Below are positions 14,291 through 37,804 of a DNA stretch of 53,138 nt, in pieces (the first letter of the stretch is position 1; each line of letters begins with the position of its first letter). The position numbers and the translations under genes are program-made. A model generated the notes under the pieces. The model was not told where the DNA came from. It made no database searches and saw nothing but the letters and a program-made list of their open reading frames with translations. This stretch comes from Myxococcales bacterium (lineage in GTDB: Bacteria > Myxococcota > Myxococcia > Myxococcales > Myxococcaceae), in NCBI GenBank assembly GCA_030681895.1, contig JAUXRI010000115.1:1-53138 (forward strand), written 5' to 3'.

Positions 14291-14368
14291 GTGGCGCAAC
14301 CCGCTGACATCACGACCTGCCTGACCGGTACGAAACTTGCGCCTGATCGCCAATCCGAGGGCTCTACC

Positions 14369-17300
14369 ATGAACGTTTCCCGCTTCCTGATCGCCGCCGT
14401 TCTCTTCAGCGCTGCATTCGCCAGCGCCGATCCACCGAAGCCGCGCGTGATGGTGATTCTCGACACCTCGCGCTCGATGCTCGAGCCCACCAACAGCGAC
14501 TTGACGGTGACGCAGATGTCCGAGGCCGGCGGCGACTGGGACACGAACACGAACCCGGTCTGCGCCAACAAGTTCTGTACGGCCAAGAAGGTCGTCGACA
14601 CGGTGATTCCGCAGTTCACCGCCGACGCTCGAATCGGTCTGACCACGTATTACCAGTTCCTGCTGACGGCCCAGAAGGCCGACAACCAGCAGACCCAGTG
14701 CATCTACGACGTGCTCGCGCCGGCCGGCCAGCTGCGCCGCTTCACGAGCCCCATCGACCTCACCGGCAGCGGCAACACCGTCTGCCCGACGACTGGCCCC
14801 GTGGGCGGCGCAAATGACGCCACCTGCGTCGGCGCCGTGCGTCGGTTGAACTTCCCCGACCGAGGAGGCAGTGGCACCGGCGCCGGCATGGATGGCATCT
14901 GCAAGTCCGGCGGCGTCACCAATACGTACGCTCCCCCGGCGACCTTGCCCAACGCGATGCCGCCGCCGTGTGCCGGGGTTGGCTGCTACCTCTTGACGAA
15001 GACCCTCGCGACCCCGGCGATGCCGGTGATCTGCTCGCTCTACAACGACTCGACCATCACCCCGCCGCAGACGTACTCGACGCCCACCTGCTCCACGAAC
15101 GGTGTGTATTCGAGCATCGCCGCAAAGACTGTCATTCGGCCGGGCGCGGCTGCGATTCGGAAGTACCAGGCGGCCGGCGCCACCATGTGCTCAGGCGCCG
15201 CGGCGCTCGTCCCGGTGCCAGGTGGCGTGCTGGCGACGAACTACGCGCCGGCAGGCGCGGCTGAATCCCTGAACGCCAACCCGACCATCGGGCTTGCCGC
15301 AGGCAACTGGGACAACTTTGGTCCGCTGTGGGGCAAATGTTCCGGCGTGGCGCCATGCGCCTTGTACCGGAGCAGCGACCCCATCTCGAGCACGACGGGC
15401 CGCGCCTGGTACGGCTTCTTCAACCCCGTGACGGCGCCGGTCATCAACTCCGTGAGCCTTCCTGGCTCGGCCGTCACCAGCCCTGCCTGGACCGTTCCCA
15501 GCAGCTACGCCTTCAGCACGTCGGTGGGTCCCGGCTCCGGCTACCAGCCCATCATCGCCGGCCTGACTGGCACGCGTTCCATCCCCACGGCGACGGCCTG
15601 TTTCGCGACGAATCGCTACGGAGGCGGCCAGACCCTTGGAGGCACGTTCGGCATCGCTGGCGCGCGCGCGACCGCTGCAACCAACATGAGCACCGCCCTG
15701 GGCGGCCGTGCCGACGAGACGCCAACCACGAGCGGTGCCGAGACCAACTGCACCGGCGCATGGCCGTGCGACGTCACCCTCGTGAGCGATGTCGCGGACA
15801 TCGTGGGCTGGTCGCCCAGCACGACCCTCTACAACCCCGGCCTCCTCATGCCGCCCAACCAGCGGTTCCGGGCACCCGCGACGGCAGTCACCCCGACGTC
15901 GTCGCCGACCTACAGGCTGCGCATCATCGACCCGGCGTTGATGGCGTGCCCCGCCATTGGCACGACGTCGGCCAACCCGGTGCTCGCGCTGCCCTCCATC
16001 GCCTGGACGAGCGGCACGCCCGGAGGCTGTAACGTGAACGGGCCCTGTACGTTCTCGGCGCCCGTCGTCGGCATGCCTGCCACCGCTTCCGGTGGCCACT
16101 GCAACTCACCGCTGTCGCGCTTCAACTCGGCGACTCCGGACGCGGCGAGTGGCTCGTCGATCATCGCGGGTGGCATCTGCTCGTTCAACGGCAAGACGTA
16201 CACCAGCACGACCTTCGTCAACGACGCGATGAGCAACCCCTACCGCGCGACGAAGAACATCCCGGCGACCGACATGTGCACCACGGGCACCTTCTCCGTC
16301 AACGACATGAGCGGCTACATCAACTCGAACATCAGCGCGAGCGCCGCTCCCAATCACGCGATGCTGACGTACCTGAGCGAGAGCGCGGGTCCGCCGCAGA
16401 GCTCGGACACCATGCCGCCGCGTGTCAACGCGCTCATCCCCGAGCCGGGCTACATGAACCCGCCCGCGACCGACCTCCCCCGCGGAGGTTCGACCCAGTT
16501 GCCCAACCCCCTCATCGGCGCCCCGAGCGACCCGAGCGGTGGCTGTCTGGGCCCGGTGGGCACGTCGGTGCAGTCGAACAACAACACCCTCTGTGCCGGC
16601 ACCACCCCCTGCACGCTGACGGTGCTCGGGCCCGTGCAGGTCAGCTCCATCTGCGGTCTCTCGGAGCGCAACAAGCCCTGCTTCGTCTGCCAATACCAGC
16701 CGCGTCAGTACACCTGGCAGCGCCCGACGAAGAACTGCTTGTACTCGTCGACGCGCACCGAGTGGACGGTCGATCGCACGGCGCAGACCTGCGAGTACAC
16801 CCGGCCTCAGTGGGAGACCGAGGTGCAGGACCCGACGACCCACACCTGTACCTATCGGGTCGGCGCTGCGCGGTATGACTTCAACCAGCCCAACGTGACC
16901 TGGTGCGAGTACTTCGCCATTCGTACCGACTTCGAGTCGCCGCGCACGCTCTACACCTACGAGTACCTCACCAAGGGCAATGAGCCGATCGGCCGCGCCG
17001 TGTCGGCCAACACCGCGGGCAACCTGTGCACCTCACCGTGGGTTGCCGGGAACAGCTTTGAAACGGCGTGTCCTGAGACGGTCGCCGGGTGCGGCGGCTT
17101 GACCTCGCTGACGATGGCCGCGACGCCCCACCTCGGCTCCAGCACCTGCCGTCTGAAGGTCGGCGGTTCGACCAGCAACCTCAGCAGCGGCATGGCCCAC
17201 CCCGACCTCGGACCCTACGCCCTTCGCCTCATGGGTCAGAACGACGGGCGCTTCTCCAACTTCACCAGCGGCAGCCGGCCCTTCGGTGGCGCCCTTGGCG

Positions 17301-20300
17301 CTGCGGTCGACCCGTCGCACCGCTCCTGTGAAGCAGCACTTCCGCCGGCCGACCCCGACACGTACAAGAGTGAGTCGGTGGCGCCGCTCGGCTTCTGCGC
17401 GAAGAAGGGCGCGGGGCCCATCACCGAGCGCAAGCTCATCTCGGACTACTACGCCGACGCGCCCTTCGTCGACGTGAACGGCGCCACCATGACCAACGTG
17501 AACACCATGGGCGCCACCTACGCGGCCGCCTACCCGGCGATCTCGGGCTGGACCGTCACCACCACCAACACGCCGTACAAGGCGCAGGGCTTCAGCGCGA
17601 ACATCGACGCTGGCGCCACCCTCGGAACCGGCGACATGTCGGCGCGCACCCTGTTCGTTCCGATTCCGAATGACGCGACGTACGTGCCGGCCGACCAGCG
17701 GGCCGCGATTCGCCGCGCGATGCGGGCCTGCGTGCCGCCGTCGGTGAGCGCCCCGGGTCCCGATGGCATGCTCGACGGTGGTGCGTGTGTGGCCGACGAG
17801 CGCGTGCGTGAACCGGCGCCGTGCGTCGACAACAACATCACCGGCCGCAACTGCGGCCCCACGGGTGACTTCACGCCGCTGTATGGCTCGCTGCGAAACA
17901 CCTACGACTACCTCGACGAGCGCTGGCGCCTCGACGAGACCGACCAGCAGTGCCGTGAGTACTTCATCGTGCTCGCGACGGACGGTCTCGAGAACACGCC
18001 CAAGGGCTACACGGTCGGTGGCGTCAGCCCGGCCACCAGCGTGCAGGGCCTCGTCGGCAGCTTCCGCAACAACGTGCCCATGAAGACGCGCCCCGACGTG
18101 AAGACCTTCGTCATCGCGCTCGGCACGGGAGCCGCCGGTGAGCCCGCGCTCAACGCCGTCGCGAACGCCGGTGGTACCACGCAGGCCTTCAACGCGACCA
18201 ACCTGGCCGAGCTCGAAGCGGCGCTGCAGGCCGTCTTCACCGTCATCACCCAGGGCGTCTTCTCGAGGTCTCGCCCGGCCATCGGCAGCGACGGCGCGCG
18301 CCTGTACGCGGCGCAGTTCGTCAGGCCGAACGACGCTGGCGTGAGCACGGGCCCCGACCAGTTCGGTCTGCTCACCGCCTACAAGGTGAACCCGACCGAC
18401 GGCACCTTCTCCATCGCGTGGGAGCACGGCGGCAAGCTGAACCACGCCTCGCACCCGGCTCGAAACATCGTCGTCGGTCTGCGCGACAACGACTCGCCGT
18501 ACGACAAGATGCTCGTTCCCTTCAGCGCGGGCAACGCCGAGCTGGTGGACCAGCTCGACGACAACCCGAACTTCGGTGCGGCGGCCGACGCTGGCGTCAC
18601 GCCCGCGAACGTCATCTCGTTCCTCACCAACAAGGGAGAGGCGTACACGGGCGTCGGAATTCGCTCGAGCAAACTCGGCCCCATCTCGCACTCGGCGCCG
18701 GTCGTCGTCGGCAAGTCGCCGTTCGACTCCGACTACGGCGGGTTGACGGCCGGTGAGAAGTCGGGGTTCGCCACCTTCCGCACGTTCACCGACACGCGCC
18801 CGACGCGAGTGCTCGTCGAGGCCGCCGACGGCATGCTCCACTCGGTCATCGAGGCTGACACCGCGCCCACGTGCACGGTGCCTGGCGAAGCCGACCCGAG
18901 CTGCCCGAGCGGCCGCGAGGGCTGGTCCTTCATTCCGGGCAGCCTGTACCTTGGCTCGAACGGCGAATACGAGTCGCTGGTTCAGTCGCTCTTCAAGCTC
19001 AAGCAGGGTGGCTGGGGTGCGCTCTACCTGAACAACACCGCGTCAGTCGTCGACGTGTGCGGCAATGGAGTGGACCGGCTGGCCATCAACTGCGCCTCTG
19101 GCGATTGGAGAACCATCGCCATCATCTCGCAGCGCGAAGGTGGACGAGGTCTCGCGGCGGTCGACGTGACGAACCCGGCGTTGGCGCCGAACCTCTCTCG
19201 TTTCCTCTGGGACTTCTGGGACGGCGACCTCGGCTTCACCTTCAGCGCGCCGGCGGTCGGTCGTGTCTCGAACGATGACGGCGACGACGAGTTCATCGCC
19301 ATCTTCGGCGGTGGCTTCGACGACCCCGGCACCACCGGCGGTGGCGAGTTCGAAGGCCGCTCGGTCTTCATCGTCAACGCGCTCACCGGTAACCTCATCA
19401 AGAAGTTCAGGAAGTTCGACCGCGGCTCGAGCGTGGACATCGACCTGATGACCGAAGTCGTCGCCCGCCCCGCCATCCATCGTCGACCGGGCGCGAACTT
19501 CACCTACCTCAGCAGCGCCTTCGTTTCGGCTGGTGAGACGCTGTTCGCCCTTCGTTTCGCCGACACCGCGGGCGTGCAGAAGGCCGACGATGGCAAGTGG
19601 AAGCCCGACGAGGTGTTCGACCCGACCTCGGCCCGAAACACCGACCGAGCCACCTGCGGCACGCCGCCGTGTAGCGTCGTGCAGGTTCGCAGCGTGTTCG
19701 AGCAGACCCCTGGCGACCCGTTGGCGATGCCGACGCCGATTCCGCCAGTCTATGCGCTGCAGAATGCGTCGGTGGGGACGTCTCCTGGCGGCGTGCTGCC
19801 GTTGCTCAACGCGCCGCCCATCTTCAACCGGCCCCGCATCGCGCCGCTGCTCGTCCCGAGCGGTGCCCAGGCCGACCTGCTGGTGGGTACTGGCGACGTC
19901 CGCGACCCCAACCAGCCGAACCTGGCGCTCTTCCGCACCAACTACTTCTACGCCATTCACGACTTCAACCAGCAGCTCAGCGGCCCGAACAACGACGGTC
20001 GCGCGCTGTGGATCAACCAGTTCCCAGAGGTGGGCGTCAACCGGCCCGAGCAGGTCGTCAGCGAGCCGGCCGTCATCACGGGCTGCGTCGTCGTCGCCAC
20101 CTACACGCTTCCCCTGGCAGGAGCCGGCTGCAACCGCGAGGGTGACACCACCCTGTACGGCTTCGACCCGCTCTCTGGCGACCTGAAGAAGTGCCTCGTC
20201 TACTCCGCGCCGAGCCCCTACGCAGGCCAGACGACGTCGGTGCTCAAGATGCCGGGCGTCGGCATTCCGTCCGACCTGGTCGTCATCAACGACAATATCT

Positions 20301-20392
20301 ACCTGTCGACGAGCCGAGACGGCCTCATGAAGGCTCCAGTGAGTGTGCCGCCGAGGCCGGGCGCCGTTCGCAGCTACCGGAGAATCAAGTGA
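14369..20392 (+). CDS. PilY1-like type IV pilus tip adhesin with split VWA domain
   Basis: The 2007-residue secreted protein (signal peptide MNVSRFLIAAVLFSAAFASA) begins a minor-pilin operon. Its C-terminal third (about 1,280-2,007) is the PilY1/PilC beta-propeller, with GWGALYLNNTA, RGLAAVDVTNP, WDFWDGDLGFTFSAPAVGRV and an acidic SNDDGDDEF loop near the position of the PilY1 calcium site. A VWA domain starts at residue 27 with the MIDAS motif DTSRS (32-36) and resumes only near residue 1,190 (REYFIVLATDGLEN). About 1,080 Cys-, Pro- and Thr-rich residues lie between. PilY1 sits at the pilus tip with the minor pilins and primes assembly and adhesion. I chose the ATG at 14369 because it begins the signal peptide and has GAGGG 8 nt upstream. 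Confidence 0.92.
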   Translation: MNVSRFLIAAVLFSAAFASADPPKPRVMVILDTSRSMLEPTNSDLTVTQMSEAGGDWDTNTNPVCANKFCTAKKVVDTVIPQFTADARIGLTTYYQFLLTAQKADNQQTQCIYDVLAPAGQLRRFTSPIDLTGSGNTVCPTTGPVGGANDATCVGAVRRLNFPDRGGSGTGAGMDGICKSGGVTNTYAPPATLPNAMPPPCAGVGCYLLTKTLATPAMPVICSLYNDSTITPPQTYSTPTCSTNGVYSSIAAKTVIRPGAAAIRKYQAAGATMCSGAAALVPVPGGVLATNYAPAGAAESLNANPTIGLAAGNWDNFGPLWGKCSGVAPCALYRSSDPISSTTGRAWYGFFNPVTAPVINSVSLPGSAVTSPAWTVPSSYAFSTSVGPGSGYQPIIAGLTGTRSIPTATACFATNRYGGGQTLGGTFGIAGARATAATNMSTALGGRADETPTTSGAETNCTGAWPCDVTLVSDVADIVGWSPSTTLYNPGLLMPPNQRFRAPATAVTPTSSPTYRLRIIDPALMACPAIGTTSANPVLALPSIAWTSGTPGGCNVNGPCTFSAPVVGMPATASGGHCNSPLSRFNSATPDAASGSSIIAGGICSFNGKTYTSTTFVNDAMSNPYRATKNIPATDMCTTGTFSVNDMSGYINSNISASAAPNHAMLTYLSESAGPPQSSDTMPPRVNALIPEPGYMNPPATDLPRGGSTQLPNPLIGAPSDPSGGCLGPVGTSVQSNNNTLCAGTTPCTLTVLGPVQVSSICGLSERNKPCFVCQYQPRQYTWQRPTKNCLYSSTRTEWTVDRTAQTCEYTRPQWETEVQDPTTHTCTYRVGAARYDFNQPNVTWCEYFAIRTDFESPRTLYTYEYLTKGNEPIGRAVSANTAGNLCTSPWVAGNSFETACPETVAGCGGLTSLTMAATPHLGSSTCRLKVGGSTSNLSSGMAHPDLGPYALRLMGQNDGRFSNFTSGSRPFGGALGAAVDPSHRSCEAALPPADPDTYKSESVAPLGFCAKKGAGPITERKLISDYYADAPFVDVNGATMTNVNTMGATYAAAYPAISGWTVTTTNTPYKAQGFSANIDAGATLGTGDMSARTLFVPIPNDATYVPADQRAAIRRAMRACVPPSVSAPGPDGMLDGGACVADERVREPAPCVDNNITGRNCGPTGDFTPLYGSLRNTYDYLDERWRLDETDQQCREYFIVLATDGLENTPKGYTVGGVSPATSVQGLVGSFRNNVPMKTRPDVKTFVIALGTGAAGEPALNAVANAGGTTQAFNATNLAELEAALQAVFTVITQGVFSRSRPAIGSDGARLYAAQFVRPNDAGVSTGPDQFGLLTAYKVNPTDGTFSIAWEHGGKLNHASHPARNIVVGLRDNDSPYDKMLVPFSAGNAELVDQLDDNPNFGAAADAGVTPANVISFLTNKGEAYTGVGIRSSKLGPISHSAPVVVGKSPFDSDYGGLTAGEKSGFATFRTFTDTRPTRVLVEAADGMLHSVIEADTAPTCTVPGEADPSCPSGREGWSFIPGSLYLGSNGEYESLVQSLFKLKQGGWGALYLNNTASVVDVCGNGVDRLAINCASGDWRTIAIISQREGGRGLAAVDVTNPALAPNLSRFLWDFWDGDLGFTFSAPAVGRVSNDDGDDEFIAIFGGGFDDPGTTGGGEFEGRSVFIVNALTGNLIKKFRKFDRGSSVDIDLMTEVVARPAIHRRPGANFTYLSSAFVSAGETLFALRFADTAGVQKADDGKWKPDEVFDPTSARNTDRATCGTPPCSVVQVRSVFEQTPGDPLAMPTPIPPVYALQNASVGTSPGGVLPLLNAPPIFNRPRIAPLLVPSGAQADLLVGTGDVRDPNQPNLALFRTNYFYAIHDFNQQLSGPNNDGRALWINQFPEVGVNRPEQVVSEPAVITGCVVVATYTLPLAGAGCNREGDTTLYGFDPLSGDLKKCLVYSAPSPYAGQTTSVLKMPGVGIPSDLVVINDNIYLSTSRDGLMKAPVSVPPRPGAVRSYRRIK

Positions 20393-27583: not shown

Positions 27584-27820
27584 CTCTCGCAGCGCTGCTC
27601 AGCTTCGACAGTCTGAACGCCGCGTGCCGCTCCAGGTCTGGCTGCTGGTGGTGAATTCGTCGGAGCTCTCGCAGCGCTACTCAGCTTCGACAGACTGAAC
27701 GCCGCGTGCCGCTCCAGGGCCGGCTGCTGGTGACGAATTCGTCGGAGCGCGTGGCAGAGACGCTCAGCGCGGCGTGCCGGCTCCACGGCTGTCGCTGCTC
27801 GTGATGAAGCCGTCGGAGCT
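27514..27820 (+). repeat. Tandemly reiterated 3' end of the 26846 gene
   Basis: The last ~70 bp of the 26846 gene recur three more times after its stop codon. The marker CGCCGCGTG(CC) is at 27532, 27618, 27700 and, with one change, 27768, giving steps of 86, 82 and 68 bp. Each copy also carries AGCTTCGACA or a relic, CTCCAGG and GCTGCTGGTG. GTGATGAAGCCGTCG from the gene end recurs at 27801-27815, directly before the next gene. Single-base indels put the copies in different frames, so they are non-coding relics. Confidence 0.88.
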
Positions 27821-27836
27821 GTGGCAGCATACCGAG

Positions 27837-29171
27837 ATGCTCCGACTCGTCGTGCTTGCGCTGGTGGGCTCCGGCTGTTCGCAGATGATGATGACGGTCG
27901 ACGGCGGCGCTGGTGGTGGCCGGGGTGGTGGCGGGGCCGGCGGCGGTGCTGCGGCTGCCTTCACCATCGTCGAGCTCGACGCGAACTCGCGCGGCCTCTT
28001 CTCGCTCGCGATGGCGGTCGACCCTGCTGATGGGCGCGTCGTCGTGGCCTACTTCACACCGCGCAACACGCAGACCGTCGTGGGCACCGACGACTTGAAC
28101 CTGAACGTCGTCGAGTGGCGCAACGGCGTGACGACGCCGCCACAGACGATTCGGTTCATGCAGCGCGCCCCCGGCGTCGCCATCGCGCTGCACCCGATGA
28201 CGAAGGAGCCCACCGTCGCCTTCATGGGCGGCCCCGACCGCTTCATTCCCACGGGCCCGTCGGTGTTCTGGTTTCAGCACGACGCCTCGCTCGCGACCCG
28301 CTCCGGCACCACGTGGACCGAGGTCGCCGCCCGCACCGATGGAGACGTCTGCACCAACGCGGGCGCGCCGGCGAACGGCTCCATCGTCGGGCTGTGGCCA
28401 GCGCTGCGCTTCGACGCCATGGGCCGCGTGGTGTTCGCGTACCGCGACATTCGTTTCGCCCAGAACACCACCGACTACACGGGCAGTGACCTCGAGTCCG
28501 TCGAGGGTCCGCTGAGCGCGTTGACGCCGCGGTGCGTGTTCGAGGGCTTCAACACCAAGCCCGGCATCGGCGGGCGCCTGATGATGGTGGCGGGGCCGAA
28601 TGACGAGACGGTGCTGGTGGCTGATCAGAACGTGACTGGCGCTGACACCGTCGGGCAAGACGTGGTGCTGATGCGGCGCACCGCGACGGGGTGGACGCCT
28701 CCAACCGTCGTGCTCTCGAGCGGTGACACGCAGACGGGCCCGCAGGTCGCGTGGGACCCGATGCTCGGCTACACGGTGGCCGTCGTTCGCGGCAGCATTC
28801 TCGCCTACCGCCAGTCGGCCAACGCCAGCACCTGGGAGAACGAAGAGACCGTCGTCTCGGAGGGCTCGGGAGGCTGGTACCCGTCGCTCGCCATCGACCC
28901 CGTGTCGCACGAGCCGTCGCTCGCCTACTACGCGTGCAGCCGCTCGAGCGGCGTCGCGGTGACCGGCTGTCAGACGTCGCAAGACGCGTTGCGTGTCGTG
29001 TCTCGCGGTGGTGGGCGATGGCAGACACCGGTGACGGTCGATGAAGAAGGTGGCTGGAGCCCGAAGCTCGGCTTCTTCGCGACCGGCAAGCGCGTCATCG
29101 CGTACCGGGTGGCGAACACCGCTGATGGGTCCGCGCGGGCGGGCGTGCTCAAGCTGGCCATCGAGAACTGA
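27837..29171 (+). CDS. Lipoprotein with Gly-rich linker and beta-propeller-like body
   Basis: The 444-residue product has the lipobox VGSGC (Cys14) and then a glycine/alanine linker (GGAGGGRGGGGAGGGAAAA, about 23-41). The body is made of repeated beta segments typical of sialidase-like or BNR-type propellers: LAMAVDPADGRVVVAYF, FDAMGRVVFAYRD, VAWDPMLGYTVAVV and LAIDPVSHEPSLAYY. Four or more cysteines may form disulfides. It is probably an outer-membrane surface protein; ligand unknown. The ATG at 27837 starts the lipoprotein signal, and the upstream in-frame ATG at 27804 lies inside the relic repeat. Confidence 0.75.
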   Translation: MLRLVVLALVGSGCSQMMMTVDGGAGGGRGGGGAGGGAAAAFTIVELDANSRGLFSLAMAVDPADGRVVVAYFTPRNTQTVVGTDDLNLNVVEWRNGVTTPPQTIRFMQRAPGVAIALHPMTKEPTVAFMGGPDRFIPTGPSVFWFQHDASLATRSGTTWTEVAARTDGDVCTNAGAPANGSIVGLWPALRFDAMGRVVFAYRDIRFAQNTTDYTGSDLESVEGPLSALTPRCVFEGFNTKPGIGGRLMMVAGPNDETVLVADQNVTGADTVGQDVVLMRRTATGWTPPTVVLSSGDTQTGPQVAWDPMLGYTVAVVRGSILAYRQSANASTWENEETVVSEGSGGWYPSLAIDPVSHEPSLAYYACSRSSGVAVTGCQTSQDALRVVSRGGGRWQTPVTVDEEGGWSPKLGFFATGKRVIAYRVANTADGSARAGVLKLAIEN

Positions 29172-29273
29172 GCGCAGGAGCCCGCCGTTTGGGTTGGCAT
29201 TTGACCTCCTCGACATGAAGACGACGCGCGCGGTGGTACATGGCGCCACTCGTCTCGGTGGGAGGGCGTGTCG

Positions 29274-30161
29274 ATGATTGTCCGGAAGAACCTCAAGCTC
29301 TCCGTCGTCGCGCGCGTCTCTGGGCCCCGCGTCGCGTTCTCGACGGCCTGGGCCCTGGCGCTGGTGTTCGCCTACAAGAACGGCGCGACGTTCCTCGCGG
29401 TGCCGAACGCGGCGGTGGGCCCGATGGCCGCCGCGCTGGCCATCTTCCTCGCCTTCCACAACAACGGCTCGTACGACCGCTGGTGGGAAGCGCGGAAGCA
29501 GTGGGGGCAGCTCGTCAACTCGAGCCGAACGTTCGCGCGGCAGGTGAAGGGCTTCATCGACACGGCCGCCGCGCACGGCGAGCTGATTCACCGGCACATC
29601 GCCTTCGTGCACGCGCTGCGGCTGCACCTGCGGAAACAACCCGAGCAGCTGCACGAACTGGCGCCGCTCCTTCCACACGGAGAGCTCGACGTCGTGCGCA
29701 AGTCGAGCAACGTGCCGCTCGCGTTGATGCAGCGGCAGGCCGACCGGCTGAAGGAGCTGCGCGCCGCCGGCGCCATCGGTGAGTTCCGCGCCATTCAGCT
29801 CGACCAGACGCTCACCGACCTCGCCAACGTGCAGGGCGCGTGTGAGCGCATCAAGAACACGCCGCTCCCGCGCCAGTACGAGTACTTCACGCGCCTCTTC
29901 GTCTATTTCTTCGTCCTCATCCTCCCGACGACGAACCTCGAGGCGCTCGGCTGGGCGACGCCGTTCTTCACCGTGCCCACGAGCTTCCTGTTCTTCGCGC
30001 TCGAAGGTGTCGCGTCGGTGAACGAAGACCCGTTCGAGAACCGCCTGCAGGACACGCCGATGACGGCGCTGTGCCGCACCATCGAGATCAACCTGCGCGA
30101 GCTCAACGGAGAGAAGGACGTGCCGCCGCCGATGCTGCCCGTCGACGGCTACCTCATGTAG
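29274..30161 (+). CDS. Bestrophin-family anion channel
   Basis: The 295-residue protein belongs to the bestrophin/RFP-TM (UPF0187, YneE-like) family, pentameric inner-membrane channels for chloride, bicarbonate and related anions. Diagnostic features are the helix ALAIFLAFHNNGSYDRWWEARKQW, with the family's N-x-x-YDRWWEAR segment (about 63-75), and the late segment NEDPFEN, matching the conserved D-P-F-x-N motif near the second half. Hydrophobic helices lie near 20-60 and 205-245 (LFVYFFVLILPTTNLEALGW). The ATG at 29274 has GGGAGGG 7 nt upstream; a GTG two codons earlier is possible. It is followed after 17 nt by the rhodanese/carbonic-anhydrase-like gene, so the two form an operon. Confidence 0.92.
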   Translation: MIVRKNLKLSVVARVSGPRVAFSTAWALALVFAYKNGATFLAVPNAAVGPMAAALAIFLAFHNNGSYDRWWEARKQWGQLVNSSRTFARQVKGFIDTAAAHGELIHRHIAFVHALRLHLRKQPEQLHELAPLLPHGELDVVRKSSNVPLALMQRQADRLKELRAAGAIGEFRAIQLDQTLTDLANVQGACERIKNTPLPRQYEYFTRLFVYFFVLILPTTNLEALGWATPFFTVPTSFLFFALEGVASVNEDPFENRLQDTPMTALCRTIEINLRELNGEKDVPPPMLPVDGYLM

Positions 30162-30178
30162 CGCCTGGAGCGTTCCCC

Positions 30179-31579
30179 ATGACCCCCGAAGCCCCCCTCG
30201 CCGAGCGCCTGGTGCGCGTGAACTTCACCGAGCGCTGCAACCGCAACGCCGCCGGTGTGCCTGTGGTGCCGCCCGAGTACGCCGCCGACACCGGCAAACG
30301 CGTCGCGCTCATCGACGTGCGTGACGAGGCCGACCTCACCGGGCCGCTCGGTCACATTCCCGGCGTGGTGCACGTGCCGCTCGCCGACATCGCGCGCATT
30401 CCCCAGGTGCTCGGGCACGAGCAGGTGACGGTGCTCATCTCGAACCACACCGACCGCGCGGGCCGGGCCGCGATGTTCCTCGAGGCGCTGGGCATGAAGT
30501 ACGTCGCCGCGATGGAGGGCGGCATGTCGGTCTGGAAGGCGATGGGGCTCTCGACGTCGCGCCTGACGCTCTACAAGGGCCGGCCGCTGAAGAAGCTCGA
30601 GGCGCCACCGCCGCCGCCGGCTGATGGGCTGCTGACGAAAGAGATGATTGCGACGCACGTCGGCCGGCGCGGCAGCGTGAAGTGGATGACGCTCGCGGCG
30701 TTCCTGATGCGGGGCCGGCGCAGCTGCATCGACGGGCGCGACGACCACGGCGTCATCGGCACGCCGGGCGGAGACACCGGAGAGCTCGCCCTGGCGCTCG
30801 GCGCCTACGAGGCCACCACGGGTGTCGAGCTCGAGCAGCACCACATCGACGCGCTCGTGCAGGCGTGGGTCGACACCTTCGGCCGTTTCTATCTGCACAA
30901 CGACACGCCAACCATCAACGCGCTGATTCCACAGCTGCGCGCGGACCCACGGCTGACGAAGCTGCTCGAGCCGTTGTCGCAGCCGATGCAGTGGCGAACC
31001 TTCCTCAAGTCGCCGCCGGCCGAAGCGCAGGAAGCGCTGCTCGACTGGTACACGAAGCCCGCTGCGATGGGCTGCGGGCACCTGCGCCTGATGACGCAAC
31101 ACCCGGAGCGCTACGGCGTTCGAGGCACGCTGGTGCCGCAGGTGATGCGCGCGTTCTGGACGACGCGGTGGAAGGGCGCTCCAGAGCCCGAGTACGTGGT
31201 GCTCGGCGGCAGCCACGGTGAAGGCGCCGTGGTGAACGTGACGCTCGACGAGGCGTTGTGGACGTTCAGCAAGGTGCCGCTGTTGTCACCGAGCGTCGAC
31301 GGGCTGCAGATGTTCGTGAACCACCCGCAGGTGGCCAAGGAGCTGCGCTCGCACGTGGCCGAGTTCCTGCTGCGCGTGGAGTCGTTGCTCCCGGCCGTGC
31401 CGAGACAGCGCAGCGCGCTCGTCGACACGGTGTACGAGATGGGCCAGCAGCACCTCGGGGCGACGGTGGGCGCGCTCGCCGCCGGCCTGCCCATCTTCGA
31501 GGTGCAGTTCCACGCCGGTGAGGAGTTCACCGTCACCGAGCTGCAGCAGGCCGACCTCTCGAAGCGCGCGAAGCACTGA
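30179..31579 (+). CDS. Rhodanese-like domain fused to a cadmium (zeta) carbonic anhydrase-like domain
   Basis: The 466-residue soluble protein has a rhodanese fold at about 15-125 (LIDVRDEADLTG, HIPGVVHVPLAD, MEGGMSVWKAMG). Its active-site loop reads SNHTDRAGR (88-96) with no cysteine, so it cannot be a sulfurtransferase. After a proline linker (142-148) the second domain has CIDGR (183-187), TPGGDTGE (195-202), HND (240-242), GCGHLRLM (298-305) and GSHGEGAVVNV (344-354). These match, in order, the metal-site motifs I recall from diatom CDCA1 (CVDGR, MPGG, HGD, GCGFFKLW, GSHEEKVVYIN), where Cys, His and Cys bind Cd or Zn. Cys183, His240 and Cys299 are the predicted ligands. The His-Cys spacing is 59 rather than about 10 residues, so an insertion is present. 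It is co-transcribed with the bestrophin gene. Confidence 0.7.
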   Translation: MTPEAPLAERLVRVNFTERCNRNAAGVPVVPPEYAADTGKRVALIDVRDEADLTGPLGHIPGVVHVPLADIARIPQVLGHEQVTVLISNHTDRAGRAAMFLEALGMKYVAAMEGGMSVWKAMGLSTSRLTLYKGRPLKKLEAPPPPPADGLLTKEMIATHVGRRGSVKWMTLAAFLMRGRRSCIDGRDDHGVIGTPGGDTGELALALGAYEATTGVELEQHHIDALVQAWVDTFGRFYLHNDTPTINALIPQLRADPRLTKLLEPLSQPMQWRTFLKSPPAEAQEALLDWYTKPAAMGCGHLRLMTQHPERYGVRGTLVPQVMRAFWTTRWKGAPEPEYVVLGGSHGEGAVVNVTLDEALWTFSKVPLLSPSVDGLQMFVNHPQVAKELRSHVAEFLLRVESLLPAVPRQRSALVDTVYEMGQQHLGATVGALAAGLPIFEVQFHAGEEFTVTELQQADLSKRAKH

Positions 31580-31634: not shown

Positions 31635-32417
31635 ATGCTCTCGCTGACGCTCGCGCTCCTCCTGAGCCAGACGCCGAAACTCGCCGCGCCGTCGTGGAAC
31701 GCCGTCGAGGTGAGCCCCGAGAAGGCACAGTTCTTCGCGCTCCACCTCTCGTCGGCGCTGCGCGACCGCGGGCTGTCAGTCATCTCCTCGCAAGACATTG
31801 CGACGCTGCTCGGGGTGGAGCGGCAGAAGCAGCTGCTCGGCTGCGGTGAAGACAGCTCCAACTGCATGGTCGAGCTGGCCAGCGCGCTCGGGGCGCAGTT
31901 GGTGTTGAGCGGCTCCATCGCGAAGCTCGAGACGACGTACCGGGTGAACCTGCGCGTCCTGCAGAGCAGCGATGGGAAGGTGGTCGCCCAGCAGGCGGTG
32001 GGGGCGGAGTCGCAAGAGCAGCTGCTCGTCGCACTCGATGACGCGGCGGCCTCGTTGGCGGCTCAGCTTCAGCCCGGAGCACCTCGAGCGAGCGCGCGCG
32101 TCCGCTCGTTCGCGTGGATTCCCGCCGCCGGCGCTGGCGCTTTTGTGGTGGTCGGTGGCGTCTTCCTCGGCCTCGCGAGTGCGAGCTCGGCCGAACTCGA
32201 CCGCAAGCTGGAGCCAGGCGTGATGAGGGACAGCCTCGGCGCCACCGTGCAGCAGGGAGAGTCGAGGGAGCGGCTCGCCTGGGCTGCCTTCGCCGTCGCG
32301 GGCGCCGCGGGCGTCACGGCGGTGCTGATGTTCCTGCTCGGCGCGCCTCCGCCAGCCACGGTGTCCGTCGCTCCAGTGAGCGGCGGCGCGGTCGCCGGCG
32401 TCGGAGGTGTCTTTTGA
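31635..32417 (+). CDS. Membrane protein with TolB-N/FlgO-like domain
   Basis: The 260-residue product has a short signal-like start (MLSLTLALLLSQT). An N-terminal domain follows with VSPEKAQFFALHLSSALRDRG, VISSQDIATLLGVERQK and ELASALGAQLVLSGSIAKLE followed by RVNLRVLQSSDGKVV. This is the pattern of TolB N-terminal/FlgO-type periplasmic domains. A GCGEDSSNC cysteine pair sits before the helix. Two membrane helices (AWIPAAGAGAFVVVGGVFLG and LAWAAFAVAGAAGVTAVLMF) follow. The architecture parallels the gene at 8279. It shares a TTGA overlap with the lipoprotein gene at 32414, so the two form an operon. Confidence 0.7.
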   Translation: MLSLTLALLLSQTPKLAAPSWNAVEVSPEKAQFFALHLSSALRDRGLSVISSQDIATLLGVERQKQLLGCGEDSSNCMVELASALGAQLVLSGSIAKLETTYRVNLRVLQSSDGKVVAQQAVGAESQEQLLVALDDAAASLAAQLQPGAPRASARVRSFAWIPAAGAGAFVVVGGVFLGLASASSAELDRKLEPGVMRDSLGATVQQGESRERLAWAAFAVAGAAGVTAVLMFLLGAPPPATVSVAPVSGGAVAGVGGVF

Positions 32418-34239: not shown

Positions 34240-35916
34240 TCACTTCGCCGACAGCGCGGGCCTCGGCAGCGCGGGCGGCTTGCCGTAGTCGTCACGCGCA
34301 CGGTTGAGCTCGAGCAGCTTCACCAGCACCGACGGCGCGACCGACGAGACGTTCTGGCCGAACTGCTCGGTGTTGAGGGCCGTCGGATCATCTCCCATGC
34401 CGACGATGTCTTTGAGCACGCGCTGTGAGGTGGGCTTGAACCCGTAGCCGCGCACCAGCTCTTCACGGCCGTCGGCGTAGATGCGGTGCACGAGCAGCGG
34501 CAGGTTGGGCAGCGTCACCGTGGAGCCGTTGGGGCGGTCGTTCAGGTTCTGCGGCAACACCGACACCATCAGGCCGAAGTCGCTGTCCTCTTCCTTCGCG
34601 AGCTCGACGAGCTGCTTCTTCAGCGCCGCGAGCGTCTGCGGCTTCGACGTCGTCACGAAGAGGTTGCCCGTCGACGCCTGGCTGCCGCGCGCGTGGCCGT
34701 TGGAGGCGGCGAACGGCTTGGTGGGGATGCGCGACATGAAGAAGCTCTGCAACACGCCTTCTTTCACGAGCGTGATGGCCTTCGGCGTCACGCCGTCATC
34801 GTCGACCGGGTAGTGGCCGAAGAGCGGCACCACGACGCCGGTGGGCGACGTCCACGTGCGCTGCGTCGGGTCGTCGATGGCGCCGAGCTGCGTGATGGAG
34901 ACGTGTTTGCCGAGTCGCTCGGTGAGGCGCCCCTGCTGGCGCTGGCCGAGGTTCTCACGCGGAAAGCTGAGCGGGCCTGCGAGGGTCGCGAGGAAAAACG
35001 TCGGCGCGGCGGCGCCCGTGAAGAGCACCGGGCCCACGTAGTCCTCGACGGCCGAAGGCGCGGCGAGCTTCTTCTCGAGCATCGTGGCGGTCTCCTTCAC
35101 GGCGGCGAGGAGCCCGGCCTCATCCGGCAAGTCGCTCTCGGAGCGCCCCTGCGTCTTCCACTCCGCGCCCACCGGCATGCCGTCAGCGGCCTGGCCACTG
35201 GCGCTCACCTTGAGCTCGAGCTTGGTCTCACAGAAGCGGTGCTTCGCGCCGTCCGAGGCCACGAAGCGCTGGCACATGTGGCGGCTGCGGAACGCGACGG
35301 TGCACGAGTGCGCCTGCTTCGAGGCCCGGCACGCGGCTGAGGCCTTCTTCACGCGCGCGGCCCACCCATCAGCGTCGAGCGCTGGCGGCTCTTCGCGGGT
35401 TTGCATGACGACCTCGGGCTTCACGGTGCTCCAGTCGGGGATGACGTCTTTCACCTGGTTGGCCTGGAGGAAGGCGCGTTTGCGGGCGATGGCCTCGACG
35501 GCGGCTTTGTAGTTGCCGTCGAAGCTCAACCAGAGCGAGCGGCGAATCGCGTCGAGGTCCTCTTCGGCGGGGAAGCGGCCGCGGCCTCCGAAGCCGAAGC
35601 CGTAGCCGCCAGACGAGAAGTTGGTGTTGTCGAACTTCTCGCTGCCGACGCGCACCGTCGTCTCGACCGACAAGGAGCGCCCACCACCGGGCGGGTAGAG
35701 CGCGCCGAAGTTCGCCGACACGCCGAACTCGTCTTCCACCGTGACGTAGCTGCGCGCGTAGTAGATCTTCTCGGGCTTCGACTCGGGCGTGGCTGGCATC
35801 GAGAGCGTCATCGCCCGCTTCAGCTCGGCCTCCATCACGTCCATCACCGGGTCGACGGTCTTCGTGTCCTTCGACACGGGCGCGGCGGCCAGCACCAGCA
35901 GCAGGAGCGCGTTCAT
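34240..35916 (-). CDS. Secreted TldE/PmbA-like subunit (inactive protease half)
   Basis: The 558-residue product has a signal peptide (MNALLLLVLAAAPVS) and the overall TldD/PmbA fold. The segments FFMSRIPTKPFAASNGHARG, TGNLFVTTSKPQT and IYADGREELVRGYG align with its neighbour at 35913. At the place of the HExxxH zinc motif it reads FFLATLAGPLSF, so it lacks the metal ligands, as does TldE/PmbA in the TldD/TldE heterodimer. A Gly/Phe-rich loop (SGGYGFGFGGRG, about 102-113) is shared in position with the neighbour. Its ATG overlaps the upstream stop (ATGA at 35913-35916), so the two subunits are translationally coupled and probably act together outside the cytoplasm. Confidence 0.85.
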   Translation of the reverse strand: MNALLLLVLAAAPVSKDTKTVDPVMDVMEAELKRAMTLSMPATPESKPEKIYYARSYVTVEDEFGVSANFGALYPPGGGRSLSVETTVRVGSEKFDNTNFSSGGYGFGFGGRGRFPAEEDLDAIRRSLWLSFDGNYKAAVEAIARKRAFLQANQVKDVIPDWSTVKPEVVMQTREEPPALDADGWAARVKKASAACRASKQAHSCTVAFRSRHMCQRFVASDGAKHRFCETKLELKVSASGQAADGMPVGAEWKTQGRSESDLPDEAGLLAAVKETATMLEKKLAAPSAVEDYVGPVLFTGAAAPTFFLATLAGPLSFPRENLGQRQQGRLTERLGKHVSITQLGAIDDPTQRTWTSPTGVVVPLFGHYPVDDDGVTPKAITLVKEGVLQSFFMSRIPTKPFAASNGHARGSQASTGNLFVTTSKPQTLAALKKQLVELAKEEDSDFGLMVSVLPQNLNDRPNGSTVTLPNLPLLVHRIYADGREELVRGYGFKPTSQRVLKDIVGMGDDPTALNTEQFGQNVSSVAPSVLVKLLELNRARDDYGKPPALPRPALSAK

Positions 35917-37640
35917 TTCGCACCGCCCTTCGAGGCCTTCGTTTCGCTGAGCGGTGGAGGCGCCAGGAGCGGCGCGCGCTCGTGGCCCTTGGCCTTTCGC
36001 TCCACCTCGAGGTCGCTGATCAACAGGCTCGGCGCGATGGCCGACACCGGCACCCAGCCCGACTCGGCGCCGCAGAAGCCGTTGAAGACTTTTGCGTCGT
36101 CACCGGTGGCGAGAATGCGCTCGAACGAGGCGATGGGCGTGCCCACGAGGTCGACGCCGCGCACCAGCTCGTCGGGGCGGCCGTCGGCGTAGACGCGGTA
36201 GACGATTTGCGGAATCACCTTGAAGGCCTGCGGGGCTCCACCGGCGCGGGTGTTGGTGAAGCCGCCCGAGATTTCTTCGAAGACGAGGCCGTACGGCTTG
36301 CCGCGCCGCTTCACCTCCTCGAGCAGGGTGGCGCGCAGCTGGTCGGGCGGGAGCTGCTTCGTCGAGTCGATGATGAGGTTGCCCTGACGCGCGACGGGCG
36401 CGAGGCCAGGCTGCGCGCGGCCGTGACCGTTGGACGCGGCAAAGCCCTTGATGGGTGAGCGGCCCTGGAGGAACGAGCGGAGCACGCCCTTCTCGACGAG
36501 GTTCACCTTCTGCGCGGGCTGGCCCTCTTCGTCGAAGAGGTAGAAGCCGTTGAGCGGCAGGTCTCCCCAGCGTGCGCGCGTCGGGTCGTCGGTGACGCTG
36601 ATGAACTCGGGCACGATGCGCTGGCCCACCTTGCGGGTGAACGTCTTGCCTTCGTCGGCGTCCTTCTGGCGGTGGCCCTCGATGCGGTGGCCGAAGATTT
36701 CGTGGAAGAACACGCCAGCGGCGCGGTGCGTGATGATGGCGGGGCCGACGTACGGCTCGATGGCGGGCGCGGCGCGGAGGGCCTCGAGCTTCTCGATGGC
36801 GCGGGTGACGCGCTTCTCGAACTCGGCCTCGGTGGGGAGCGCGTCGGGCGAGGTGGCCTCGATGGCGTCGTAGAAGTCGAGCTCCATGCCGTCGTCGGCG
36901 CGAACGCTGCCCCACACGCCGAGGCGAGCGAAGAAGCGGGGCTCACGCAGCTTCGCGCCCTCGGAGTCGACGAAGTAGTGCGTCATCGACGAGACCTGCA
37001 TCGACACCGACGAGCGCAGGATGAGCGGGTGCGTCTTGAAGGGCACCGACAGGCGCTTGAGGCGCGCTTCCCACTCGTCGCGGTTGAGCACGGTGTCGAG
37101 CGGCTTGTTCTTGCCCTCGAGGCGAACGGTGGGCTTATCGGTGGAGAAGTCGGGGGCCTTGTCCTCCTCCGCGGCCTTCACGGCGACGTTGGCGCGGACC
37201 TTGAGCAGGTCCTTCGTCGCGTCGCGCACGGCGTCGTCGGTGGCCTTCCAGAGTGAGACCTCGAGGGCGCCCTTGTCGTCTTCGACGGGCAGCGAGCGGC
37301 CGCCACCACCGAAGTCGAAGTCGAAGCCGCCGCGGACCTTGTGGGTGTTGTCGAGCTCGCGCGAGCCGACGCGGGCCGAGATGTCGAGCAGGCGCACGCG
37401 GCCGGTCAGCTTGCCGCCGCGCGCGGCCTGGCCTTCGAGGGCGCCGAAGGTGGCGGAGGTGCTCCACGCCTCGCCGTCGGTGACGCGGTACGAGAGGTAG
37501 TAGAGCGGCGCGTCTTTTTCTCCGGGCAGGCCCTTCTTGCTGCGGGCGAGCTCACTGGAGAGCGCATCGAGGAGGACATCGTTTTCAGCGGGAGCGGCGG
37601 TCGGCGCGGCGAGAGCCAGCGCGAGGAGGGTCGAAAGCAT
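35913..37640 (-). CDS. Secreted TldD-like metalloprotease
   Basis: The 575-residue protein carries the TldD signature VFFHEIFGHRIEGHR, with HExxxH at 313-318, and a late cysteine in NGFCGAESGWVPVS, the usual third part of the metal site. Known TldD/TldE complexes are cytoplasmic proteases that trim peptides such as microcin B17 precursor. Here a signal peptide (MLSTLLALALAAPTAAPA) indicates export, which is unusual. Gly-rich FDFDFGGGGRSL lies near 106-117. The start ATG at 37640 has no Shine-Dalgarno, but TACAGT lies 11 nt upstream. The frame extends 11 codons further upstream without improving the signal. It forms a two-gene operon with the TldE-like gene downstream. Confidence 0.88.
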   Translation of the reverse strand: MLSTLLALALAAPTAAPAENDVLLDALSSELARSKKGLPGEKDAPLYYLSYRVTDGEAWSTSATFGALEGQAARGGKLTGRVRLLDISARVGSRELDNTHKVRGGFDFDFGGGGRSLPVEDDKGALEVSLWKATDDAVRDATKDLLKVRANVAVKAAEEDKAPDFSTDKPTVRLEGKNKPLDTVLNRDEWEARLKRLSVPFKTHPLILRSSVSMQVSSMTHYFVDSEGAKLREPRFFARLGVWGSVRADDGMELDFYDAIEATSPDALPTEAEFEKRVTRAIEKLEALRAAPAIEPYVGPAIITHRAAGVFFHEIFGHRIEGHRQKDADEGKTFTRKVGQRIVPEFISVTDDPTRARWGDLPLNGFYLFDEEGQPAQKVNLVEKGVLRSFLQGRSPIKGFAASNGHGRAQPGLAPVARQGNLIIDSTKQLPPDQLRATLLEEVKRRGKPYGLVFEEISGGFTNTRAGGAPQAFKVIPQIVYRVYADGRPDELVRGVDLVGTPIASFERILATGDDAKVFNGFCGAESGWVPVSAIAPSLLISDLEVERKAKGHERAPLLAPPPLSETKASKGGAK

Positions 37641-37804
37641 GTGCGGCGCGCACTGTAACCGGCAGTGCGGCATGCACGAGGGAAAGACACCCGCCCGGAT
37701 GGTCCAGCGTCAGCCGCTCATCCACTGCACCTGCGCGACTCGTCTTCCAGCCAGTGCCCTCGACTCGGAGGTCGCGCGCTCGAAGTTCCCGGGCGCGAGT
37801 GCAA

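Follow-up and report, generated by a model that had tools for sequence, protein, structure and literature searches.

A bestrophin gene beside a candidate zeta-like carbonic anhydrase gene in a Myxococcales bacterium: a putative bicarbonate-handling module

A Bestrophin Gene Precedes a Rhodanese/Zeta-Carbonic-Anhydrase-like Fusion Gene

A stretch of 53,138 nucleotides (positions 1 to 53,138 of contig JAUXRI010000115.1, assembly GCA_030681895.1) from a Myxococcales bacterium, hereafter called the window, carries a bestrophin channel gene followed by a gene coding for a rhodanese domain fused to a domain resembling zeta carbonic anhydrase (CA), the class of the diatom enzyme CDCA1. Judging from sequence comparison and predicted structure, the zeta-like domain probably catalyses the interconversion of CO2 and bicarbonate, and the bestrophin, whose gene ends 17 nt before the fusion gene, probably lets the bicarbonate so formed cross the inner membrane. 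Both open reading frames (ORFs) lie where an earlier interpretation of the letters alone (hereafter the sequence-only reading) had placed them, and its assignment of the first to the bestrophin family was borne out by Pfam (PF25539 Bestrophin_2, E 4.4e-71, 240 bits with a cut-off of 27).

29274..30161, + strand: bestrophin (Bestrophin_2) channel gene, 295 aa, from ATG 29274 to TAG 30161
30162..30178, + strand: intergenic gap of 17 nt between the bestrophin stop and the fusion-gene start, read from the sequence
30179..31579, + strand: rhodanese/zeta-CA-like fusion gene, 466 aa, from ATG 30179 to TGA 31579

An in-frame GTG at 29268 offers an alternative start for the bestrophin gene, and a GGAG (30167-30170) is found 8 nt ahead of the fusion-gene ATG. 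The two genes are presumably co-transcribed.

The Putative Metal Site Is Invariant

The zeta-CA-like domain was delimited by predicted fold and sequence comparison, and its parts were assigned by alignment:

30626..31543, + strand: zeta-CA-like domain, residues 150-455
30725..30739, + strand: C183-I-D185-G-R187, proposed first metal ligand and Asp-Arg dyad (CVDGR in CDCA1)
30896..30904, + strand: H240-N-D242, proposed His ligand (HGD in CDCA1)
30920..31051, + strand: extra, mostly helical segment, residues 248-291, between the His and the second Cys
31070..31078, + strand: G298-C299-G300, proposed second Cys ligand (GCG in CDCA1)
31208..31222, + strand: G344-S-H346-G-E348, proposed active-site region (GSHEE in CDCA1 repeat 3)

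The motif order CIDGR, PGG, HND, GCGHLRLM and GSHGEGAVVNV and the numbering of Cys183, His240 and Cys299 had been given correctly in the sequence-only reading. Database searches retrieved 251 proteins at E <= 0.001 in a first run and 650 in a second with the zeta-CA-like domain alone, a rhodanese domain being present in 116 of the best 120 and in 114 of the 120 listed, respectively; organism names among the matches listed in both searches were myxobacterial or deltaproteobacterial. In a 96-row alignment, C183, D185, G186, R187, D188, H240, D242, G298, C299, G300, H301, H346 and E348 were among the invariant residues. A further set of 58 domain rows, composed of the loci from relatives and the window (56 of them different), was tabulated at 25 positions, and 15 of these were identical in 58/58 rows (C183, D185, G186, R187, G197, G198, H240, D242, G298, C299, G300, G344, H346, E348 and F379), the ten others being variable (e.g., D188 45/58, H301 57/58, Q377 44/58). 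As this invariance extends down to the most divergent row (L110, 30% identity to its nearest query), the conserved motifs are not due to chance.

The same conservation bears on a further proposal of the sequence-only reading, that the protein may be a distinct subclass or a non-catalytic sensor; a sensor is disfavoured, as none of the putative active-site residues varies. A CO2 or bicarbonate sensor gating the bestrophin would be in keeping with the fusion to an inactive rhodanese, likely a protein-binding domain, with the long stretch that separates two of the ligands and with the other CAs already present in these genomes. However, ligand and dyad residues are all invariant (58/58 rows) and there are rhodanese-less relatives with no bestrophin next to them, and we consider the sensor the least probable of the alternatives.

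As for other families, no Pfam model matched the window domain, and matches in a 22-member set were at E 0.1 or worse and in one member each; PF00484 (beta-CA) matched none of the 22. Against the PDB, phmmer with the domain returned 0 matches and the domain profile nothing better than E 0.41, and an NCBIfam search retrieved rhodanese-related models only. No clear best match to an unrelated family was found. No signal peptide was visible by eye in the window fusion protein. In one rhodanese-less relative (L106, 2847-3857, - strand) the N-terminus resembles a lipoprotein signal (LLAGC), so this form may be secreted or periplasmic.

Relation to Diatom CDCA1

The C-terminal domain was predicted to share the CDCA1 fold over 177-185 residues, at 17-19% identity. 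The sequence of CDCA1 repeat 3, confirmed against 3uk8, retrieved 196 homologues, and 27 of the 120 listed were aligned (the CDCA alignment), the invariant columns including C41, D43, G44, R45, G59, G60, H93, D95, G102, C103, G104, G145, H147, E149 and F171. Comparison of the uncut 58-row domain profile with the CDCA alignment by hhalign covered 165 columns at 21% identity (E 9.6e-4, for a single comparison), with a score of 31.4; the highest of 60 column-shuffled profiles scored 26.0, and the profile read in reverse 16.3. The register paired C183 with C41, H240 with H93, C299 with C103, H346 with H147 and F379 with F171, the extra segment being crossed by a 49-residue gap. The suggestion that the second domain is CDCA1-like is thus upheld by the predicted fold and by ligand residues in register. 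When residues 248-291 were cut out, the hhalign probability was 92% (E 6.5e-7, 0/60 shuffles as good), a score that is partly circular, the boundaries of the cut having been picked on the motif alignment, so that the fair figures are those of the uncut profile. Earlier, shallower local comparisons were weak (E 0.0045, 0.026, and 9.2e-4 over 20 columns with the segment cut), and among the profiles tried only the one built from 58 rows stayed in register across the extra segment.

The two proteins have in common, besides the predicted fold, the motifs C-x-D-G-R, G-G, H-x-D, G-C-G and G-x-H-x-E in the same order. They differ in the distance from the His to the second Cys, which is 59 residues in the window protein and 10 in CDCA1, in agreement with the longer spacing pointed out by the sequence-only reading and corresponding to 49 extra residues; the CDCA1 ligands would be C263, H315 and C325 if 3bob is numbered from 223, as its chain range suggests. 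Moreover, the window protein has an inactive N-terminal rhodanese and one such domain instead of the three repeats of CDCA1, is bacterial, and is encoded by a gene adjoining a bestrophin gene. A search of the window's genome with PF18484, the CDCA family, gave no match (nor did the model match any control genome), and no canonical CDCA was found in 195 genomes of the window's phylum, in a search made without a positive control. A 2015 review states that CDCA1 homologues had been identified in diatoms only (PMC4413181). The contigs that carry two canonical PF18484 (CDCA-type) proteins, P0289 and P0292, are 5.29 Mb and 0.43 Mb long, and both proteins are therefore possibly prokaryotic.

Bestrophin Genes beside the CA-like Gene in Relatives

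A whole-protein search of the window's phylum was swamped by rhodanese matches (138/195 genomes) and the domain search was used instead, by which the domain was detected in 20/195 genomes of this phylum and in 35/377 genomes of the phylum of Nannocystis exedens (38 stretches, several cut by contig ends). Nannocystis, which can be cultured, is among the carriers of the enzyme gene. In the window's phylum, a PF25539 bestrophin was directly adjacent and on the same strand in 11/20 carriers, upstream in G000, G152, G112, G151, G068, G076, G086, G090, G082 and G184 and downstream in G147, where a simple length estimate gives a chance expectation of 0.014 of 20 for a bestrophin within 500 bp. No adjacent bestrophin was present in G154, G069, G070, G071, G072 and G182, in the fragments G143 and G164, and at a second copy in G112, and the G080 stretch ends at a contig edge. 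In the second phylum bestrophins were adjacent in 4/35 carriers, upstream on the same strand in G198 and G569 and convergent in G341 and G548, the convergent ORF ends being 0-1 bp apart; the search for bestrophins at loci L074-L124 used six tblastn queries instead of the Pfam model. On a 58-row tree, made with a quick method and leaving out a broken copy in G184, same-strand pairing requires 7 changes, and well-supported branches make 6 of these unavoidable, counting loss, gain and rearrangement each as a change among genomes that are related.

SulP, DAB and Beta-CA Neighbours

Other partners were also found, in a survey that annotated part of the neighbours of these loci. In one relative (L004, from MAG.451, outside both phylum sets) the CA-like gene lies directly behind dabA (PF10070, E 3.8e-226) and a dabB-like gene (PF00361, E 1.9e-40), in a genome with no PF25539 match. 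In four rhodanese-less relatives (L105, L108, L110 and L111) a divergent SulP gene with a STAS domain lies 283-358 bp from the domain match; each of their genomes has 3-4 PF00916 rows (some genes being split over two rows), with the top score always that of the neighbour. SulP genes occur at L095 and L099, at a distance of ~1 kb, and at L097, at 3.8 kb, while in the rhodanese-less L107 a protein kinase gene takes the place of SulP. The SulP family, named for sulfate in Pfam, includes bicarbonate transporters according to the title of PMC12596568. No partner pattern was recognised at loci flanked by an amino-acid permease (L008), a CitMHS transporter (L009), a lipoprotein-like ORF with a sub-threshold VWA match (L010), FtsH on the other strand (L011), a histidine kinase 3.4 kb off (L013), HipA and cyclase genes (L114), a ketoacyl synthase (L115) or a spermidine synthase (L118). 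Altogether, the CA-like family is recurrently found near bestrophin, SulP or DabA-DabB genes.

Bestrophin genes also accompany beta-CA genes, within ~2.5 kb, at three places in 2/23 genomes (lists compared by eye). In G070 (L125, 3819-5475) a bestrophin gene (PF25539, E 7.1e-56) diverges from a beta-CA gene 85 bp away, and in Nannocystis exedens a partial bestrophin-like ORF (L126, 4576-6263; E 1.2e-30) is likewise divergent from a beta-CA gene. At the third place, again in Nannocystis exedens (L127, 4654-8354), a bestrophin gene (E 2.7e-63) is followed by a 152-aa ORF and by an ORF joining SulP (PF00916, E 1.8e-66) to beta-CA (PF00484, E 2.6e-39); as in the window a bestrophin stands next to a CA, but the latter is of the beta class, fused to a SulP transporter, and no zeta-like domain is present. 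Such pairings lie outside the zeta-like family and speak for a functional association of bestrophins with CAs in these bacteria.

The Rhodanese Half and a Possible Sulfur Substrate

30296..30541, + strand: rhodanese domain, residues 40-121 of the fusion protein (PF00581, E 9e-11)
30440..30442, + strand: Ser88 at the putative rhodanese catalytic Cys position (alignment column, 96 rows)

Of the 96 aligned rows, 86 have Ser in the putative catalytic Cys column, 6 have Cys and 4 have Ala. The rhodanese half of the window protein is probably not catalytic because Ser88 replaces this Cys, a point that adds to the sequence-only reading. The replacement also argues against the domain being a CS2 or COS hydrolase that acts in sulfur metabolism together with rhodanese and SulP as handlers of sulfur, as do the rhodanese-less relatives, which retain the enzyme domain and its residues, and the bestrophin and DAB partners, which have no known sulfur link. 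A CS2 hydrolase activity of zeta-CAs is named in the title of a reference cited in PMC13144422, and the rhodanese fusion, the naming of PF00916 as a sulfate permease family and, at L106, a same-strand upstream PF04143 sulfur-transport ORF ~0.6 kb away would all suit a sulfur substrate, yet we judge this explanation very unlikely.

The Bestrophin Pore and the Case against the Module

The top PDB sequence match of the window bestrophin was 4wd7 ('Bestrophin domain protein', E 2.5e-38), which we take to be KpBest. The older bestrophin model PF01062 was discarded as unsuitable, having no match in the window's genome or in any control; PF25539 fits instead. Alignment with 4wd7 and the IxxxIxxxF spacing located the putative pore neck:

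29430..29456, + strand: codons 53-61, with the three putative pore-neck positions Ala53, Ile57 and Phe61

By this placement the KpBest counterparts would be I62, I66 and F70.

Several observations weigh against the proposed module. Regarding the domain, no Foldseek match reached E <= 0.001, the uncut profile had an hhalign probability of 22%, and PF18484 was unmatched in 22/22 members at E up to 10; from this and from the 59-residue spacing, the domain is a distant homologue with a predicted zeta fold and not a PF18484 member. Beta-CAs (PF00484) were detected in 23/23 genomes checked, with five matches, some weak, in the window's own, and the zeta-CA-like protein is therefore not the sole CA. 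Regarding the gene pair, an adjacent bestrophin is missing in G154, whose protein is 81% identical to that of the window, and in 31/35 carriers of the second phylum; in G184 (L012/L029) the CA-like gene beside the bestrophin has internal stops, owing to gene decay or an assembly error. The pairing thus recurs (15/55 carrier genomes overall) and is not universal, 40/55 having no adjacent bestrophin in the stretches examined, several of which end at contig edges.

Regarding the channel, the neck of the window bestrophin, with positions inferred on the 4wd7 sequence, is A/I/F and not the anion-type I/F/F, and the middle residue in the 15 adjacent bestrophins (window included) is Ile in 11, Leu in 4 and Phe in 0. 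According to the review PMC8496536, KpBest, with a neck of I/I/F, is a Na+ channel whose I66F substitution shifts selectivity toward Cl-, and human bestrophins conduct HCO3- well. The window bestrophin belongs to the same family as KpBest and shares the Ile at the middle position, but has Ala instead of Ile as first neck residue, and its gene adjoins a CA-like gene. The ion carried by the window bestrophin is the weakest step of the proposed module. The CA might accordingly be active next to a channel for Na+ or for ions in general, both genes serving a common pH or osmotic stress response with no hand-over of bicarbonate, and two of the partner genes are convergent and so not co-transcribed. 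Against this, where the family has other neighbours they include SulP and the inorganic-carbon system DabA-DabB, and other bestrophins adjoin beta-CA genes, one with the SulP::beta-CA fusion; we regard a Na+ or general channel as unlikely.

Proposed Mechanism and Known Systems

In the bicarbonate module that we favour, Zn or Cd would be held by C183, H240 and C299, and a metal hydroxide would attack CO2, as in other carbonic anhydrases, so that a cytosolic Cys2His metal site would interconvert CO2 and bicarbonate. The inactive rhodanese domain could serve as a docking module for the enzyme, and the bestrophin would let bicarbonate follow its gradient. For a passive anion channel in an inside-negative membrane, net bicarbonate efflux would be the simplest direction. 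Instead of supplying Rubisco, the module may release CO2 from respiration in the form of bicarbonate and regulate the pH of the cytosol, efflux and pH control being likelier than CO2 fixation given the inside-negative membrane and the lack of a Rubisco match in the window's genome (88% complete). A CO2-fixation role was dropped, as Rubisco was found in 1/17 genomes checked.

A parallel may be sought in the DAB system (DabA PF10070/DabB PF00361), described in PMC13144422 as a cytoplasmic Cys2His-zinc protein with an Asp-Arg dyad and a membrane partner, and behind whose genes one relative (L004) is directly placed; DabA is, however, a different and larger protein, and the membrane partner in the window is a bestrophin. 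In the algal CO2 concentrating mechanism, the bestrophin-like proteins BST1-3 of Chlamydomonas are proposed to supply bicarbonate to a CA, CAH3 (PMC6708349), although in thylakoids, with a different CA and in a photosynthetic host with Rubisco. By analogy only, a Cys-less rhodanese domain in an inorganic-carbon setting is found in a Rubisco-binding protein that is transmembrane and without a CA domain (PMC13345187).

Surroundings of the Gene Pair

The pair is flanked upstream by a gene with no family match (27774-29171) and downstream by a gene with a weak FlgO match (31635-32417), which suggests no operon wider than the two genes. A DabA-DabB pair next to each other had no match among the scanned window neighbours, and Rfam and tRNA scans of the window returned 0 matches. 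Elsewhere in the window, two overlapping PmbA/TldD-type genes (558 and 586 aa) lie in tandem on the - strand (34240-37673), and a 2033-aa ORF on the + strand (14291-20392) has a PilY1 beta-propeller domain at residues 1462-1706.

Significance

No bacterial zeta-like CA, rhodanese-CA fusion or bacterial bestrophin-CA pair was described in the titles or opening abstract lines of the papers listed in a literature search mostly outside subscription journals, so that earlier work may exist. We tentatively propose that bacteria own a separate-class branch of zeta CA with interchangeable bicarbonate conduits (bestrophin, SulP and DAB), and that bestrophin-CA pairing may be a general bacterial module, also where no Rubisco is found, following the logic of the algal CO2 concentrating mechanism. 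If true, this unannotated bacterial family would give the zeta class a deep bacterial branch and enlarge the carbonic anhydrase repertoire, and it would provide a ready test of bicarbonate conduction by bacterial bestrophins. The proximity to bestrophin, SulP and DAB genes across relatives makes the inorganic-carbon role directly testable.
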